From: Flavobacterium sp. NG2
Lineage (GTDB): Bacteria; Bacteroidota; Bacteroidia; Flavobacteriales; Flavobacteriaceae
Reading direction: 5' to 3'
DNA: 64,000 bases
NCBI RefSeq assembly: GCF_034119845.1
Contig: NZ_CP139420.1
Location: 2,334,001 to 2,398,000 of the forward strand
Shown one piece after another: positions 18,723 to 57,849 of this stretch; position 1 is the first letter of the stretch; each line of letters begins with the position of its first letter. The notes beneath the pieces are model-generated. The model saw only the letters and a list, made by a program, of their open reading frames with translations, did not search any database and had not been told where the DNA came from. The position numbers and the translations under genes were made by a program.

Positions 18723-18951
18723 TAAAATCCTTTAAAATCTGCTTTGCTTGTTTCCGAGTCATCGGTGTTCGAGTCATGAGGTTTTTCTAAACAATGCCTA
18801 AAAAGGACTATCTCTTTGATAAATTATGATTTTTAGATTCCTTCTTTTATATTCATAACTATCGAAATCATTACTAAAAAATAGGATTCCCTAAAAAAAA
18901 CTTTCGTAAATTCGCGACCTTAAAAGTTTGACGATTAAACGAAATAAAATT

Positions 18952-19221
18952 ATGAGTAAAACAATGACAGTTGACATCTTGTCGAGTATTAAAGGAGCAC
19001 AGCCTTCGGAGTCCGTGAACAAATTATTTGATGTGATTAAAAATGCGCATCCATCTAATGAAAATGCTGCCAATAATGTCAATCGTAATTGTGTGTCAGT
19101 AAGTAGTTTAAGAGAAGATGTGGTAATAGAGAGTTCGGCTATTGAAAAACAACTTATACTAGAGAATTTCCCGAACAAGAAAAACGGTTTTTTGGTAGTT
19201 GCTAAAGTTATAGAAGGATAA
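18952..19221 (+). CDS. Small protein encoded directly upstream of gatA
   Basis: This 89-residue soluble protein (from the ATG at 18952; an upstream Leu-start extension is less likely) has no domain I recognise. It contains a mix of acidic and Asn-rich segments (SESVNKLFDVIKNAHPSNENAANNV). The stop codon lies 3 bases before the gatA start, so the two, and gatB-aspS, form one transcription unit. The place and size would suit GatC, the third subunit of the amidotransferase, but I see no GatC sequence pattern. It should be treated as uncharacterised. A TAAATTCG box at 18907-18914 is a possible promoter element. Confidence 0.65.
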   Translation: MSKTMTVDILSSIKGAQPSESVNKLFDVIKNAHPSNENAANNVNRNCVSVSSLREDVVIESSAIEKQLILENFPNKKNGFLVVAKVIEG

Positions 19222-19224
19222 AAA

Positions 19225-20622
19225 ATGGATTCTCAGATAAAAAAAATACACCAGCAATTGGTGTCTAAACAAATTACTTGTACAGCTTTGGTACAAGAAA
19301 AATTAGACTTACTTAAAGAAAATAAATACAACTCAGTCAATTCTTTGTTAGATAATTTAGCGTTAGAATTGGCGGCTAAAGTGGATGCTAAAATTGCAAA
19401 TGGTGAAACTATCGGTTTGTTAGAAGGTATTCCGTTTGGGATTAAAGATGTGTACATGCTGCAAGGAACTTACACTACTGCAAGTTCTGAGTTGTTGAAA
19501 AATTATAAATCACCGTACACGGCTACTGCTATTCAAAAATTATTGGATGCAGGTGCTATTCCGTTGGTAAAAGAAAACTGTGATAGTTTTGGTCACGGTT
19601 CGTCTAGCGAAAATACGATTTTTGGAGCGGTGAAAAACGCTATTAATCCAGAATTGGTAGCTGGAGGTTCCAGTGGAGGTTCTGCGGTAAACGTAGCCAA
19701 AGAGTATACGGTTTTTTCTATTGGAGGAGATACGGGAGGTTCGATTCGTCAACCTGCGGGTTATAATGATATTTACGGATTCAAACCTACTTACGGAAGA
19801 ATTTCACGATACGGATTGATGGCTTATGCGTCTTCTACGGATTGCGTGGGACCATTGGCAAAATCATTAGAAGATATCCGCATTGTTTTGAACGTGATGA
19901 GTGGAAAAGATCCAAAAGATCAAACTTCTATCATTTCAAACGAAATTAGCGAAGAGGCTGTTGCAACTTCAAAAGTGAAAACGGTGGGTTATTTCAAAAA
20001 TTTCATCGAAAGTGAAGCAATTGACACCCAAGTAAAAGCGGATTTCTTAGCTGCTATCGAAAAAATTAAAGCCAAAGGAATTGCTGTAAAAGAATTGGAT
20101 TTCTTTAAATCGGATATTTTAGTTTCGACTTATTATACCTTGGCAATGGCGGAAACTGCTTCAAATTTGTCTCGTTTGGACGGAACCAATTACGGAAACC
20201 GAATTGAAGGAGAAAATTTAATAGATACCTATGCGGTGACTCGTTCTGAAAATTTTTCAGAAGAAACCAAACGCAGAATCGTAGGAGGGAACCAAGTATT
20301 GTCTCAAGGTTTTTCGGATGAAATCTATTTGAAAGGATTAGCTGTAAGAGACCAGATTTCGGAGAATTTCAGCAAAGATTTCGAAGAGGTAGATATCGTT
20401 TTATCGCCAGTGACACCAAGTACGCCTCCTAAAATTGGAGATAGTTTGAAAGATCCGTTGGCGATGTACTTGTCGGATGCTTATACGGTTGGATTTAGTT
20501 TAGGGCAATTGCCAACTTTAACCGTGCCACAAGGAACAAGCACTGGACTTCAAATTACAGCAGCAAAAAATAATGATGAATTAGTATTGCAATTTGCAAA
20601 CTTCTTAAAAGATACACTATAA
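19225..20622 (+). CDS. gatA: Asp-tRNA(Asn)/Glu-tRNA(Gln) amidotransferase subunit A
   Basis: This 465-residue amidase-signature enzyme uses glutamine to supply ammonia for transamidation of misacylated tRNA. The catalytic triad is visible: Lys74 in PFGIKDV, cis-Ser149 in VAGGSSGGSA and nucleophile Ser173 in GGDTGGSIRQPAG. The spacing equals that of characterised GatA proteins. It is slightly shorter than average (about 480). Its last base overlaps the start of gatB-aspS (TAATG), so subunits A and B-AspRS are translationally coupled. Together they allow Asn-tRNA or Gln-tRNA formation by the indirect route. Confidence 0.95.
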   Translation: MDSQIKKIHQQLVSKQITCTALVQEKLDLLKENKYNSVNSLLDNLALELAAKVDAKIANGETIGLLEGIPFGIKDVYMLQGTYTTASSELLKNYKSPYTATAIQKLLDAGAIPLVKENCDSFGHGSSSENTIFGAVKNAINPELVAGGSSGGSAVNVAKEYTVFSIGGDTGGSIRQPAGYNDIYGFKPTYGRISRYGLMAYASSTDCVGPLAKSLEDIRIVLNVMSGKDPKDQTSIISNEISEEAVATSKVKTVGYFKNFIESEAIDTQVKADFLAAIEKIKAKGIAVKELDFFKSDILVSTYYTLAMAETASNLSRLDGTNYGNRIEGENLIDTYAVTRSENFSEETKRRIVGGNQVLSQGFSDEIYLKGLAVRDQISENFSKDFEEVDIVLSPVTPSTPPKIGDSLKDPLAMYLSDAYTVGFSLGQLPTLTVPQGTSTGLQITAAKNNDELVLQFANFLKDTL

Positions 20623-23600
20623 TGGAATTGGAGCAATTAACAGCGGCATTAAAAGCCCACGATTTAGAATTGGTAATCGGACTAGAAACGCACGTCCGAT
20701 TGAATACCAAAACCAAGTTGTTTTGTTCTTGTCCCAATCAAGAAATTGAAACACCGAACCAAAATATATGTTCAGTTTGTACTGGGCAAATGGGAGTTTT
20801 GCCAGCTATCAATAAAGAAGCGATTACCAAGGCGATTTATTTTGGCAAAGCGGTAGAATCATCCTTTAGTAATGAAGTGATTTCTTGGGATAGAAAGCAT
20901 TACGAATATCCTGATAACCCAAAAAATATTCAAATAACGCAGTTTCATAATCCTGTGATTCCTGATGGAAAGGTTTCTTGTTACCGTAATGACGGTTCGC
21001 AATTTACGGTAAATCTAACTCAGGTTCATATTGAGGAAGATGCGGCCAAATTAATGCACGAAAAGAAAATTTCGTTAGTTGATTTTAACAAAGCGGGTGT
21101 TCCTTTGATTGAAATTGTAACCGAACCTTGTATTCGCAATATAGAAGACGCTTCGACCTATGCGCAATACATTCAGCGTATTGTTCAGAATTTAGGAATC
21201 TCTGAGGCCAATTTGGAAAAAGGAGAATTCAAATCGGATGTTTCGGTTTCATTGCGTAAAATCAACTCGAATGTTTTGAACCCAAGAACCGAAATCAAAA
21301 ACTTGAACTCGTTTAAGTTTATGGTCGAAGCTTTGAAAGAAGAGGTAGAAAAACAGTTCAATTATTACGAAGAACACAAAGAATTTAGACCTGACCAAAC
21401 AACGGTTTTATGGGATGCCGATTTGAAGCAAACCAAAACGATGCGTAAGAAAGAATTCGAAGCGGATTATCGTTTTATTTCAGAGCCAGATTTACCGTTT
21501 GTCAACATCAAAGCGGAGATAGAAGCGATTTCTGTAGATACTAGTGCCTTACCTTATGCAGTGGAATCAATTTTGATTGGTGGCGGTGTTTTACCTCAAG
21601 ACGCTAAATTTTTCACGGCTGATGCTTTGCGTTCAAGAACGTTTGTGACATTAAACGATAAAATCAATGATCCTTCATTTGTGGCTAAAACGTTGGCAAA
21701 CAATATCAAGGCAGAAGATTATGCTAAAATCCATAATATTGAGCATTTAACAACCATTTTTGTGTTGTTTAAAGCAGAAAAAATTACGGCAGTTTTAGTT
21801 CAAAATGCCATTGCGGGTTATTTGAAAGATCAAAATTTTGATTACAACAAATACTTTGCAGACAATACCATCTCTGAAGATAAAATTCAAGAAGTAATTG
21901 AAAAAGTACTTTCAGAAAATGAGGCTGTTGCCAATGATGTCAAGGCAGGAGATCAAGGAAAAGCTGGTATTTTGGTTGGAAAAGTTTTGGGAATCATCGG
22001 AAAAGGAGCGAATGGTAAAGTAATTCGTCAGATTATTTTAGATAAATTATCCGTAGGGACGGTAGGGGCAGGTCGCGACCTGTCCGTACAAAATCCAGAA
22101 AATAATGCCGTAGGGACAGGTCGCGACCTGTCCGTACGCGAGCTGTCCGTACGAGATTCATCCGCACAAGAAGAATCCCTTCCTGAAATTCCTATCATTA
22201 TAAAAGATACGTACCGAACTCATAAAATTTCACAATTATCGGAAGCTAACATCAACGAAGAAGTGATGTTGTCAGGTTGGGTAGCGAGTGTGCGTGACCA
22301 CGGAGATTTGATGTTTATTGATTTGCGTGATTCAAGTTATGAGATTTTCCAAGTTAATCTTAGTAGAGAAACTTTTCCTAATATCGATGAGTTGGTAAAA
22401 TTGAAGCCAGAATCTGTGATTTCGGTAAAAGGAATTGTAGTAGGTCGTAACGAAGACGATTACAATGCAGGTTTACGTACAGGTAAAATCGAATTAAAAG
22501 CATCTGAATTAGAAGTTTTAAACTTGTCTAAAACCTTGCCTTTTGAGATTAAAAGAGCGGCCAAAACAAATGAGGCAACTCGTTTTCAATACAAGTTTTT
22601 GGATCACAGAAATGAAGAGGTTCGTAGAGCGATTGTTAACCGTCATAAAGTAATTAAGTTATTGCGTGACATTCTAGATAACGAAGAGTTCTTAGAAATT
22701 GAAACGCCAATTTTGAGTGCTGGTACCGATGAAGGAGCACGCGAATTTATTGTGCCTACTCGTAAAGGAGCAGGGATGTTTTATACGTTACCGCAAGCAC
22801 CACAGCAGTTCAAGCAAATGTTGATGGTGAGTGGGTATGAAAAGTATTTCCAAATTGCACGTTGTTTTAGAGATGAGGATTCTCGTGGAGATCGTCAACC
22901 CGAATTTACGCAGTTGGATATCGAAATGGCGTACGCAAGTATGCAACAAATTATCGATTTGAATACGAAAATGTTCAATGAAATTGTAACCAAAATTTAT
23001 GGTAAAAAATGGATTTTACATCCGTTTGAAGTGATTACCTATAAAGACGCGATGGATTTCTATGGTTGTGACCGACCTGATTTGCGTTACGGTTTAAAAA
23101 TGCAAGACATTACCGAAATCGTAAAAGATACCACTTTCCAAGTTTTCTCTAAACCAATTGAAGATGGAGGAATCGTAAAATGTATCAAAGTTTCGGCTGC
23201 AGAGCAAGGAAATAAGCGTATGTCGAAAGGGCAAATCGAAACCTTAACTGCTGTGGCGCAACAACACGGTTTAGGCGGATTAGCTTATATTATTGTGAAT
23301 GAAGGCGAATTGCAATCACCAATTATTAAGTTCTTGGGTGAAGAGATAGCAGCTGGAATTATCAAAGCTACTAATGCGCAAGTAGGTGATATTGTATTCT
23401 TCTCGGCGGCAGATTATGCTACGGCAAATAAAGCCTTGGATGCTGTACGTCAAGAAATGGGAAGAATGTTGAACTTGATCAATCCAAAAGAATTGCGTCC
23501 GGCTTGGGTAGTTGATTTTCCAATGTTTGAGAAAACAGATGAAGGAAGATGGACGTTTACACACAATCCGTTCTCAATGCCTGCTATCTATGATTTGAAA

Positions 23601-23993
23601 AAGCATATGGATGGTAAAGAAGAAGAAATCGGAACCATCATCGCACAACAATACGATATTATTTTGAATGGTTACGAAATAGGTGGAGGATCTGTTCGAG
23701 CACATAAATCGGAGATTCTTGAAGCAACTTATAGAAATATGGGGTACAACAAAGAAGAAATGATGAAAAGTGTAGGAACGATGTACAAAGCTTTCCAGTA
23801 CGGTGCACCGCCACACGGTGGAATCGCATGGGGAATTGATCGTTTGATGATGATTTTGGAGAAAAAAGCTTCGATTCGTGAGGTAATGGCGTTTCCTAAA
23901 ACAGGTTCTAGTGAAGATTTATTATTCGGAGCACCATCGATTTTATCAGACCGTAAAGTGGAGGAAATGAATGTGAAGATTATGAGAAAGTAG
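20622..23993 (+). CDS. gatB-aspS: Fusion of GatB and aspartyl-tRNA synthetase
   Basis: One 1123-residue protein joins GatB (about 1-476; ELVIGLETHVRLNTKTKLFCSC, HYEYPDNPKN, LIEIVTEP) to class II AspRS (about 530-1123; GWVASVRDHGDLMFIDLRD anticodon-binding domain, motif 2 FRDEDSRGDRQPEFTQLD, GAD insertion, motif 3 GIAWGIDRLMM). Both halves have normal length. His560 lies where non-discriminating bacterial AspRS has His and Asn-excluding enzymes tend to have Leu. I therefore infer production of Asp-tRNA(Asn) that GatB amidates in cis. The 50-residue linker carries repeats (LSVGTVGAGRDLSVQ and AVGTGRDLSVREL) encoded by palindromic DNA. The fusion is, to my knowledge, known in Flavobacteriaceae. 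Confidence 0.93.
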   Translation: MELEQLTAALKAHDLELVIGLETHVRLNTKTKLFCSCPNQEIETPNQNICSVCTGQMGVLPAINKEAITKAIYFGKAVESSFSNEVISWDRKHYEYPDNPKNIQITQFHNPVIPDGKVSCYRNDGSQFTVNLTQVHIEEDAAKLMHEKKISLVDFNKAGVPLIEIVTEPCIRNIEDASTYAQYIQRIVQNLGISEANLEKGEFKSDVSVSLRKINSNVLNPRTEIKNLNSFKFMVEALKEEVEKQFNYYEEHKEFRPDQTTVLWDADLKQTKTMRKKEFEADYRFISEPDLPFVNIKAEIEAISVDTSALPYAVESILIGGGVLPQDAKFFTADALRSRTFVTLNDKINDPSFVAKTLANNIKAEDYAKIHNIEHLTTIFVLFKAEKITAVLVQNAIAGYLKDQNFDYNKYFADNTISEDKIQEVIEKVLSENEAVANDVKAGDQGKAGILVGKVLGIIGKGANGKVIRQIILDKLSVGTVGAGRDLSVQNPENNAVGTGRDLSVRELSVRDSSAQEESLPEIPIIIKDTYRTHKISQLSEANINEEVMLSGWVASVRDHGDLMFIDLRDSSYEIFQVNLSRETFPNIDELVKLKPESVISVKGIVVGRNEDDYNAGLRTGKIELKASELEVLNLSKTLPFEIKRAAKTNEATRFQYKFLDHRNEEVRRAIVNRHKVIKLLRDILDNEEFLEIETPILSAGTDEGAREFIVPTRKGAGMFYTLPQAPQQFKQMLMVSGYEKYFQIARCFRDEDSRGDRQPEFTQLDIEMAYASMQQIIDLNTKMFNEIVTKIYGKKWILHPFEVITYKDAMDFYGCDRPDLRYGLKMQDITEIVKDTTFQVFSKPIEDGGIVKCIKVSAAEQGNKRMSKGQIETLTAVAQQHGLGGLAYIIVNEGELQSPIIKFLGEEIAAGIIKATNAQVGDIVFFSAADYATANKALDAVRQEMGRMLNLINPKELRPAWVVDFPMFEKTDEGRWTFTHNPFSMPAIYDLKKHMDGKEEEIGTIIAQQYDIILNGYEIGGGSVRAHKSEILEATYRNMGYNKEEMMKSVGTMYKAFQYGAPPHGGIAWGIDRLMMILEKKASIREVMAFPKTGSSEDLLFGAPSILSDRKVEEMNVKIMRK
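22062..22089. repeat. Palindromic element inside gatB-aspS, copy 1
   Basis: Twenty-eight bases starting GTAGGGGCAGGTCGCGACC are nearly self-complementary around CGCG (AGGTCGCGACCT core) and match the copy at 22110-22137 at all but one position. It encodes the linker of the fusion in frame without a stop. A shorter GTAGGGAC fragment lies just before it at 22053. Confidence 0.85.
22110..22137. repeat. Palindromic element inside gatB-aspS, copy 2
   Basis: A nearly perfect palindrome, GTAGGGACAGGTCGCGACC onward, with stem GTAGGGACAGGTCG, is present in the linker. A third partial copy, CTGTCCGTAC, follows at 22143-22152. The same GTAGGGACAGGTCGCGACCTGTC wording is, as I recall, a dispersed intergenic repeat in this genus. 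The location inside a gene is unusual. Confidence 0.85.
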
Positions 23994-55521: not shown

Positions 55522-57849
55522 TTAAAAATTATCCGTCAAAATCCTGTACACCAATTCTTTAGTGGGTTGTTGTCCATTGATTTTTTCTCTAACAACTTCA
55601 AAAGTTACTTTAAAATCGCAACCAGATTTATAATCGCTACAACCATAAGCTGTTTTTCCTTTAATCACAATTCCCTTTTGACATTTTGGACAAGCCAAAT
55701 CATCAGAGCTAGGCTTTGTAGATGTTGGAGGAGGAGGAGTAGCCCCTTTTTTAGGCTCTAAAACCAGTTTGAAATCTTCATCAAAACGCAACAAACCTTC
55801 TACTGTTCCTGCTTCGGTTTTAAAGTCTTTCAGATTGACTGTTGAACCTTTTTGAAGCAAACGCAAATATTGATTTTCGGATATTTTTTTCTCCGCAAAT
55901 ACAAAAGGCAAAACCATGGTACACCCCTCTTTATAGCCACTACAGCCATAAGCGGACTTCCCTTTGATTAATGTTCCTTTCTTACATTTCGGACAGCTTT
56001 CGGCTGTAATTCCTGCGGCTTTCTTTTTTTCTGCCTTGACTTCTTGTTGTTGAACGCTACTGGCATGTGAAATATTAGCACGCTTGGTTTCGCTTCGCAC
56101 TTCGTAAACCAAAGCATCGACCATTCGTTTCATGTTATTGATGAACAAACCAGCCGTATAGGTGCCTTTTTCGATATCTTTCAACTGTTTTTCCCATGTT
56201 CCTGTCAATTCAGCTGATTTGATTAAGTCATTCTGAATCGTATCAATTAACTGAATACCAGTAGGAGTAGGTAATACCTGTTTTTTGTTTCTAACAATGT
56301 ATTGACGCTTGAACAAGGTTTCGATAATATTCGCTCGGGTAGAAGGACGACCAATGCCGTTTTCCTTCATTAACTCACGTAAATCCTCGTCATCGACCTG
56401 TTTACCTGCGGTTTCCATCGCACGCAGTAGGGTTGCCTCCGTAAACTGATTGGGTGGTTTGGTTTCTTTTTCTAGAAATGAAGGTTGGTGTGGCCCTTTT
56501 TCACCAATAACAAAGTTTGGTAATAAGTCGGCTTCTTTTTCCTTGGCGTTTGTACTGAGCGGAGTCGAAGTATCAAATACAACGCGCCATCCTTTTTTCA
56601 AGATGACTTTTCCTGTAGTTTTAAAAAGTACATCGGCAGCTTTACCTATTACAGTGGTATTGGCAACCGAACAATCATCATAAAACGAAGCAATAAAACG
56701 CTTTACGATAATATCATACACCAGTTGCTGGTTGTATTGCAAATTCGATTGAATTCCCGTGGGAATAATAGCGTGGTGATCCGTGACTTTTTTGTCATTA
56801 AAAACCTTGGGTGATTTTTTTATTTTTTTGCCCAAAAGTGGTTGGGTTAATTCAGCATAATTAGTCAATTTTTGCAGAATTCCAGGTACTTTAGGATAAA
56901 TATCATTGGGTAAAAAAGTGGTATCTACTCTAGGGTAGGTCACTACTTTTTGTTCGTATAGTGTTTGGGCAATTTTTAGCGTTTCTTCGGCCGAAAAGCC
57001 AAATTTAGTATTGCAATAAACTTGTAAGCCTGTTAAATCAAAGAGTTTTGGAGCGTATTCATTTCCGTTCTTTTTGTCGATGGATACAATTTCGAAATCA
57101 CTTTCTTTGACTTTATTAGCTAAGAGTTCTCCGTCTTCTTTTTTTAAAAACCGACCTTCTTCATAGCTAAAAAGGGTTTCTCTATATAAGGTTTGTAATT
57201 CCCAATAGGGTTGTGGTTTAAAATTTTCAATTTCCTTAAAACGGTCAACCACCATAGCCAACGTAGGCGTTTGTACCCGACCAATAGACAAAACCTGCTT
57301 GTATCCACCGTGTTTTACGGTGTACAAACGTGTGGCATTCATCCCAAGCAACCAGTCGCCTATGGCTCTTGAAAAGCCAGCATAGTATAGATTATCATAA
57401 TTAGAGGCTGGTTTCAAGTTCTCAAAACCTTCTTTAATAGCTTCGGTAGTAAGGGACGAAATCCATAAACGTTGAACTTCGCCTTTATAATTGGCTTCGT
57501 TCATTACCCAGCGCTGAATCAGTTCTCCTTCTTGTCCAGCATCCCCGCAGTTAATGACCAATTCGGCTTTATCGAATAATCCCTTGATGATTTTAAACTG
57601 CTTTTGAATTCCTGAATTTTCTACTACTTTGGTCTCAAATTTTTCAGGCAGCATGGGTAAGTTGTTTAAGTCCCAACTTTTCCAATACGATTTGTAATCG
57701 TTCGGTTCTTTTAAGGTGCATAAATGACCAAAAGTATAAGTTACTGCATAGCCATTGCCTTCAAAATACCCATCGTGCTTGGTATTAGCACCCAATACAG
57801 ATGCGATTTCTCTTGCTACACTTGGTTTCTCGGCAATACAGACTTTCAT
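55522..57849 (-). CDS. topB: DNA topoisomerase III
   Basis: This 775-residue type IA topoisomerase has the TOPRIM motif (KVCIAEKPSVAREIASVLG, ELVINCGDAGQEGELI), the active-site Tyr in VVTYPRVDTTF, and GIGRPSTRANIIETL. The C-terminus holds two zinc ribbons, CPKCKKGTLIKGKSAYGCSGYKEGC and CPKCQKGIVIKGKTAYGCSDYKSGC, separated by a DUF-like linker of about 60 residues with a Pro-rich stretch. It resolves catenanes and recombination intermediates. The duplicated zinc ribbon is typical of flavobacterial TopB, as I recall. Confidence 0.92.
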   Translation of the reverse strand: MKVCIAEKPSVAREIASVLGANTKHDGYFEGNGYAVTYTFGHLCTLKEPNDYKSYWKSWDLNNLPMLPEKFETKVVENSGIQKQFKIIKGLFDKAELVINCGDAGQEGELIQRWVMNEANYKGEVQRLWISSLTTEAIKEGFENLKPASNYDNLYYAGFSRAIGDWLLGMNATRLYTVKHGGYKQVLSIGRVQTPTLAMVVDRFKEIENFKPQPYWELQTLYRETLFSYEEGRFLKKEDGELLANKVKESDFEIVSIDKKNGNEYAPKLFDLTGLQVYCNTKFGFSAEETLKIAQTLYEQKVVTYPRVDTTFLPNDIYPKVPGILQKLTNYAELTQPLLGKKIKKSPKVFNDKKVTDHHAIIPTGIQSNLQYNQQLVYDIIVKRFIASFYDDCSVANTTVIGKAADVLFKTTGKVILKKGWRVVFDTSTPLSTNAKEKEADLLPNFVIGEKGPHQPSFLEKETKPPNQFTEATLLRAMETAGKQVDDEDLRELMKENGIGRPSTRANIIETLFKRQYIVRNKKQVLPTPTGIQLIDTIQNDLIKSAELTGTWEKQLKDIEKGTYTAGLFINNMKRMVDALVYEVRSETKRANISHASSVQQQEVKAEKKKAAGITAESCPKCKKGTLIKGKSAYGCSGYKEGCTMVLPFVFAEKKISENQYLRLLQKGSTVNLKDFKTEAGTVEGLLRFDEDFKLVLEPKKGATPPPPTSTKPSSDDLACPKCQKGIVIKGKTAYGCSDYKSGCDFKVTFEVVREKINGQQPTKELVYRILTDNF

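Follow-up and report, generated by a model that had tools for sequence, protein, structure and literature searches.

GTAG-type REP elements at the joint of a GatB-AspRS fusion in Flavobacterium sp. NG2, probably a tolerated and exchangeable spacer

In some Flavobacterium species, short mobile palindromes encode the bridge between GatB and AspRS in a fusion protein, and from one species to the next this bridge diverges much more quickly than the two enzymes that it joins. In Flavobacterium sp. NG2, from which the window (the whole stretch of 64,000 nucleotides that was analysed) was taken, this bridge holds a composite of GTAG-type REP elements, which is probably a tolerated, exchangeable spacer of REP DNA in a quickly changing linker and not a domesticated element. 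REPs lying in frame inside genes are already known; the recurrent, fast-switching use of REPs in one linker appears to be new. These linkers show how mobile palindromes turn into protein sequence while the gene stays intact, and which reading frame is retained; they also suggest that REP-derived protein segments may spread between species. Because the one enzyme occurs naturally with many interchangeable linkers, the tolerance of the linker can be tested directly.

Repeat composition of the fusion linker

Profile search of the fusion product identified the domains GatB_N, GatB_Yqey, an OB-fold, a class-II synthetase and GAD, and the stop of gatA overlaps the start of the fusion gene (Table 1). 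The genome has a separate AspRS and an AsnRS besides the fusion (loci L111 and L114, named from sequence), and the fused AspRS is therefore a second copy. Among 199 genomes of the genus, a subset drawn from a larger group, GatB was found in 25; it is fused to AspRS in 24 of them (two on broken contigs) and unfused in G034. The fusion protein is a candidate for a covalent transamidosome.

Table 1. Features of the gatB-aspS region in the window, and the RAYT frame of the same genome
Feature	Position	Strand	Remarks
gatC-like ORF	18928..19221	+	directly upstream of gatA; name inferred from gene order only
gatA	19225..20622	+	directly upstream of the fusion gene; name from translation and gene order
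gatB-aspS fusion gene	20622..23993	+	1123 aa; GatB ~14-477, linker, AspRS ~530-1121
Partial REP head GTAGGGACG	22053..22061	+	in frame; read by eye
REP copy 1, 28 bp	22062..22089	+	exact match; encodes VGAGRDLSV(Q); 3 mismatches on the minus strand
Spacer, 20 nt	22090..22109	+	encodes (Q)NPENNA; sole non-REP part of the insert
REP copy 2, 28 bp	22110..22137	+	exact match; encodes VGTGRDLSV(R); 2 mismatches on the minus strand
Two degenerate 3' half-copies GCGAGCTGTCCGTAC, GAGATTCATCCGCAC	22138..22167	+	encode RELSVRDSSA; read by eye
RAYT frame of the window's genome	L006 1522-2106	-	holds a REP; REPs also upstream of the frame

The 28-mer GTAGGGNCAGGTCGCGACCTGTCCGTAC has two exact plus-strand matches in the linker and none in 100 dinucleotide shuffles. 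All the repeat parts lie in frame inside one ORF, including the half-tails at 22138-22152 and 22153-22167, and the insert peptide reads VGTVGAGRDLSVQNPENNAVGTGRDLSVRELSVRDSSAQ. The original prediction had described two 28-bp copies with partial copies at the joint of GatB and AspRS, inserted without loss of frame, and this is confirmed by the exact match at both sites and by the uninterrupted 1123-aa frame; the second half-tail lies past the end that had been given, 22152. A doubled head like that of the linker is also present in the REP of the genome's own RAYT frame (peptide VGTVGTGRDLSV), and 3' half-units like the tails trail full REPs elsewhere in the genome, at L008 and, on the other strand, at L018. 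A REPIN is a pair of inverted REPs; in the linker two REPs are likewise close together, but in direct orientation.

Both 28-bp copies start with GTAG and are near-perfect palindromes. They share with the GTAG REP superfamily the GTAG end, a palindrome of 20-40 bp (here 28 bp) and dispersed copies that lie mostly between genes. In the 4.15-Mb genome, which is one contig, the REP core was found within two mismatches at 14 places, against none for a reversed-pattern control, and a gapped pattern added two further places to give 16. Twelve of these are outside recognised genes, as judged from open frames without annotation, which bears out the earlier suggestion of an intergenic repetitive palindrome with copies to be found outside genes by a search for the 28-mer. 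The other four are within genes: two in the linker, one in alaS (L014, KYVRTGRDLSIQSN) and one in a Y1-type transposase frame (L006/L012, VGTVGTGRDLSV). A tblastn search of the plasmid gave nothing further. A tandem or chance repeat was rejected, given the dispersed copies in the genome and the absence of shuffle matches for the 28-mer.

GTAG-tagged REPs have been described as short palindromes, mostly intergenic and RAYT-linked, which sometimes lie wholly in ORFs, including those of tRNA synthetase genes (Di Nocera et al. 2013, PMC3733652); the GTAG end, short palindrome, mainly intergenic placement, RAYT link and in-ORF copies are all common to the present elements. The Rickettsia RPE, also treated there, are palindromes kept in frame in protein genes, CGTC-tagged and apparently without a dedicated transposase (PMC3733652). 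Both are in-frame palindromes, but the REP of the window is tagged with GTAG instead of CGTC and occurs with RAYT.

RAYT frames and in-frame copies in other genes

The RAYT frame of the window's genome is interrupted by a TAA ahead of the tyrosine motif, so that its current activity is doubtful; it is probably inactive, and its REPs may no longer move. The only family matched by the two RAYT frames that were profiled is NCBIfam NF047646 (REP-associated tyrosine transposase), with 55.3 bits for the frame of G194 and 43.4 bits for the genome's own (E values of 6.6e-15 and 3e-11), both below the cut-off of 80, and the matches start past the REP-bearing loop. The close RAYT frames compared carry WQ or WH as well as YIxxNP, YIxxNA and like forms, while NHxH was part of the pattern by which the frames were selected. 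In 12 of 13 close RAYT frames, the genome's own included and L259 and L263 left out, a REP-like peptide lies in the N-terminal loop. Long tandem peptide repeats were observed at the REP-bearing loop of four frames (L172, L257, L262 and L264), for example NPDEN about ten times and HNQNS/HDQNS tens of times.

A RAYT at least 54% identical to that of G194 is present in 15 of the 199 genus genomes, and all 15 have the REP core. The core within one mismatch is found in 49 of the 199 genomes, and in 34 of the 184 without a close RAYT. This association is partly circular because some REPs sit inside a RAYT gene; the core is found outside the RAYT frame in 14 of the 15 genomes, the only core of G166 being inside it, and a count of 13 of 15 against 34 of 184 genomes gives a Fisher p of 1e-7. 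Four further genomes have distant RAYT homologues (39-44%) and no REP core. Among the fusion genomes, RAYT is present in four of the eight with a REP linker versus one of the 16 others (p 0.03), and the four REP-linker genomes without RAYT count against the reading preferred below.

TnpA-REP subclass 2.4 occurs in Bacteroidetes, has a REP inside the transposase gene and carries an NHxH motif, in the form NH[IFV]H, together with WQ and YIxNNP (PMC6006769). As in that subclass, a REP lies within the RAYT gene here, in the N-terminal loop; unlike the subclass as described in the available part of the paper, the REP is also found in gatB-aspS, alaS, waaA and a restriction gene.

At one alaS loop, a REP lies in frame in seven of 46 genomes (the window's, G004, G181, G029, G093, G115 and G061); the 46 loops were read from 53 loci, a set partly picked for REPs or odd length, and the count is thus not a rate. 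These loops differ from the usual 20-aa loop by -4, -1, +5, +6 or +9 aa, net changes which imply that REPs took the place of some loop residues besides adding new ones. A REP is in frame also in waaA (one site, two genomes), in a type-ISP restriction gene and in the RAYT genes; for these other genes profiles were run on one member each, and the rest were named by likeness.

All 17 REP copies inside recognised genes, from five gene families, are in phase 0. The search set consisted of 115 distinct copies (core with at most two mismatches), among which 27 are flanked on either side by 45 or more open codons; 17 of these are in recognised genes and 10 were dropped. The copies at L163 and L211 were dropped as having no REP flanks, those at L149-1613, L162-1402 and L220 as sitting in repeat debris, those at L179 (two), L186 and L201 as seeming to precede start codons, and that at L008 for its unsupported ORF. 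The phase-0 claim depends on dropping these 10, because six of them are not in phase 0. The crude chance that all five families would be in phase 0 is about 1%, if the five stop-free choices of frame and strand, two of which are phase 0, are taken as equal. The only frame seen for a REP in recognised genes is (V)G[TA][GS]RDLSV, which is hydrophilic and stop-free. Peptides like GRDLSV that occur in Flavobacterium proteins are repeat DNA and not conserved motifs, and the same probably holds for TERSRS and LSGVE.

Linker turnover and exchange among relatives

Linkers were compared in 201 rows, made up of 120 of 1748 homologous proteins, 80 of 584 loci and the window, with some genes represented twice. 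The REP peptide, recognised by motif, is present in 40 of the 201 rows listed. Among these rows, the linker is 40-42 aa long in the REP-free Flavobacterium-like rows (41 aa in 106 of 110), 41-54 aa in the REP rows and 40-47 aa in the 51 rows from other genera, which puts a length floor near 40 aa with room for about 13 more. Single-REP linkers are 42-45 aa long, a small net gain; this, together with the near-constant length without REPs, is unlike simple insertion and implies that deletion or replacement also occurred. The REP had been proposed to have created or lengthened the linker. Lengthening stands, with replacement and to 41-54 aa, but creation is rejected, since REP-free rows carry a linker at the same place and that of the nearest relative is 41 aa long and unrelated.

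In the alignment across relatives that had been proposed, the linkers differ. The REP linker is found in eight of the 24 fusion genomes, with every REP in phase 0; 15 of the 16 REP-free linkers were read, and the remaining one (L136, G125) was assigned from the lack of a core match. The number of full REP copies in the linker varies among species, being 0, 1 or 2. In G039 and G009 the linker copy is the only REP core match of the genome, so the REP can outlast the other copies there, or be present in their absence.

The sister L021 has no REP, although it is 97% identical to the window over the aligned enzyme parts. In a DNA tree of 40 loci with 11 REP rows, the REP state requires 10 changes, eight of which are imposed by branches with good support, and it shows no clustering, since 381 of 500 label shuffles are as low. 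When L070, whose row is long and odd in composition, is left out, nine changes are required for 10 REP rows, six of them forced, with 339 of 500 shuffles as low. In a FastTree protein tree of 152 rows with the linker excluded, 40 of them with REP, 27 changes are required, at least 13 forced; here the REP state does cluster, as shuffled labels average 35.6 changes and none of 500 shuffles comes down to 27, which is partly due to near-copies among the rows. REP linker types such as ...RDLSVPFSEAN.DLSVPISEEK are found again in distant rows, and some apparent gains may therefore be exchanges.

One apparent exchange is seen in L070, a metagenome-assembled contig of another genus with a Flavobacterium-like tract at the REP linker. 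Its flanks are about 0.9 identical to other genera, often Confluentibacter, for the majority of bins between 120 and 600 nt upstream and within 1500 nt downstream; farther out on the upstream side, the comparison without gaps breaks down for every row. Directly before the REP linker, 60 nt are 0.98 identical to Flavobacterium L131, with the best other at 0.80, while the next bin is a tie (0.87 and 0.88) and the bin directly after the linker gives 0.68 versus 0.88. The near-far difference of the L070-L131 pair, 0.24, is the largest of 4186 pairs (mean 0.02, sd 0.05). L131 has itself a REP-free linker, and the linker of L070 is nearest to those of L125 and L119 (0.83 and 0.82). In this one case, from one MAG assembly, the linker was apparently exchanged by a short recombination tract.

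In an AlphaFold model of the fusion, which is poor overall (mean pLDDT 45; 42 rows) and was used only to contrast the linker with its neighbours, residues 479-533 are among those of lowest pLDDT (about 22-29) and lack helix or strand. They are flanked by a helical GatB tail and by the OB fold, mostly at pLDDT 56-84. The model fits a disordered spacer and weakly suggests one.

The preferred reading, a tolerated and exchangeable REP spacer, would begin with non-autonomous palindromes that are thought to move via the RAYT (TnpA-REP) transposase in trans; no transposition was observed. REPs would have entered the presumably disordered linker between GatB and AspRS, where many kinds of in-frame DNA may be tolerated at about 40-54 aa, and the inserted segment would then work as a plain spacer. 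Whole linker cassettes would be lost, gained and exchanged across species, in one case or more apparently through a short tract of recombination, and the linker would in this way turn over faster than the enzymes around it.

A tentative alternative for the window's own lineage, compatible with a REP origin further back, is that the cassette came by homologous recombination from the REP linker of another species, with GKGANGKVIRQIILDKL and QEESLPEI as the arms. The linker types common to distant branches, the absence of phylogenetic signal for the REP state in the DNA tree and the L070 tract all argue for it. So do the 30 nt directly upstream of the window's linker, which match other rows at up to 97% versus 83% for L021; some of the rows that outdo L021 there carry a REP (L125 and L070), and others, L121 and L127 among them, do not. 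Beyond these 30 nt on the upstream side, and directly from the linker's end on the downstream side, L021 is however the closest row, alone or tied with others (88-98% for the majority of bins). A transferred tract would therefore have been very short, and it could have come from a donor without a REP. The resemblance of the window's REP head to the head in the genome's own RAYT frame also speaks against a foreign cassette.

Other repeat families at the same loops and possible roles

A second repeat family, CTGAGCGNAGTCGAAG, has 4-42 matches per genome in seven genomes and none with a reversed control. In Flavivirga jejuensis (L091) and Tamlana laminarinivorans (L092) it encodes LSAVEA within the GatB-AspRS linker, and in G044 it encodes LSGVE within the alaS loop; the linker and the alaS loop have therefore each taken in repeats from two or more unrelated families. 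Several of the 14 loci fetched for this family lie in long open frames, including the topoisomerase III gene of the window. A third family, CATTCTGAACGANAGTGAAGAATCT, seen in alaS loops, was unconfirmed as a dispersed repeat: a search of seven genomes gave six matches, five of them alaS copies, and two genomes had none.

Near-same-site insertion has been described for recB in two Xanthomonas species (PMC3733652). In the present case, one linker and one alaS loop hold repeats in several species, and these repeats belong to more than a single family. The word stem 'Flavobacter' is absent from the main text of PMC3733652. In a literature search that covered few subscription journals, no report was found on RAYT, REP or the GatB/AspS fusion in Flavobacterium, nor, with the same coverage, on recurrent REP use of one fusion linker with tip-level switching at a site common to a second family.

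On a bolder view, which we consider unlikely, species exchange repeat-derived protein segments at the GatB-AspRS linker and the AlaRS loop. REPs and other dispersed repeats would supply the spacer modules, and the palindromes, through cruciforms or RAYT nicking, would stimulate the short recombination events behind the swaps. If so, the evolution of a linker in a core enzyme would be driven by mobile repeats and not by point mutation.

A role for the RNA is improbable. The strong mRNA hairpin for which a check had been proposed at the linker is found, as the strand folds at -67 kcal/mol between 22030 and 22170 (shuffle mean -36, z -8.6), and REP linkers fold more strongly (mean -56, 11 rows) than 30 other rows (mean -32). 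A domesticated REP might thus slow ribosomes at the hairpin, or be cut there by RNase III, and so tune the folding or the dosage of the AspRS half. Palindromes fold by construction, however; 16 of the 24 fusion genomes do without a REP linker, and the copy number, spacing and subtype of the REPs vary. No constraint on the sequence was seen either: the 17 linker REP copies have 25 changes from the consensus, seven of them synonymous where about 32% would be expected without constraint, and no peptide constraint was detected in these copies (p 0.83), a comparison which has little power with 25 changes. The term 'domesticated' in the original prediction is accordingly not borne out, and a selected function of the REP spacer is probably absent.

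Local duplication of a coding repeat unrelated to mobile DNA would account for repeats that are adjacent and in the same frame, but it is contradicted by the many genome copies, the RAYT association and the repeat-free linker of the nearest relative, and can be set aside with near certainty.

Further repeats were observed in coding sequence. In the topoisomerase III gene (window 55522-57849, minus strand), a copy of the second family, CTGAGCGGAGTCGAAG, lies in frame at 56555-56570 and encodes TSTPLST, at a place where the alignment with E. coli Topo III has a gap. A second-family repeat encoding DTSTSLST also lies in frame at the same gene site (base 1501 of L297 and L295) in the window's genome and in G022, in a gene that may be dapD. 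In the fetched loci, four linkers from Tamlana and Confluentibacter (L058, L074, L085 and L098) have repeats with a 7-nt period, where CCAACAA gives PTTNNQQ and AGACCGA gives RPKTED.
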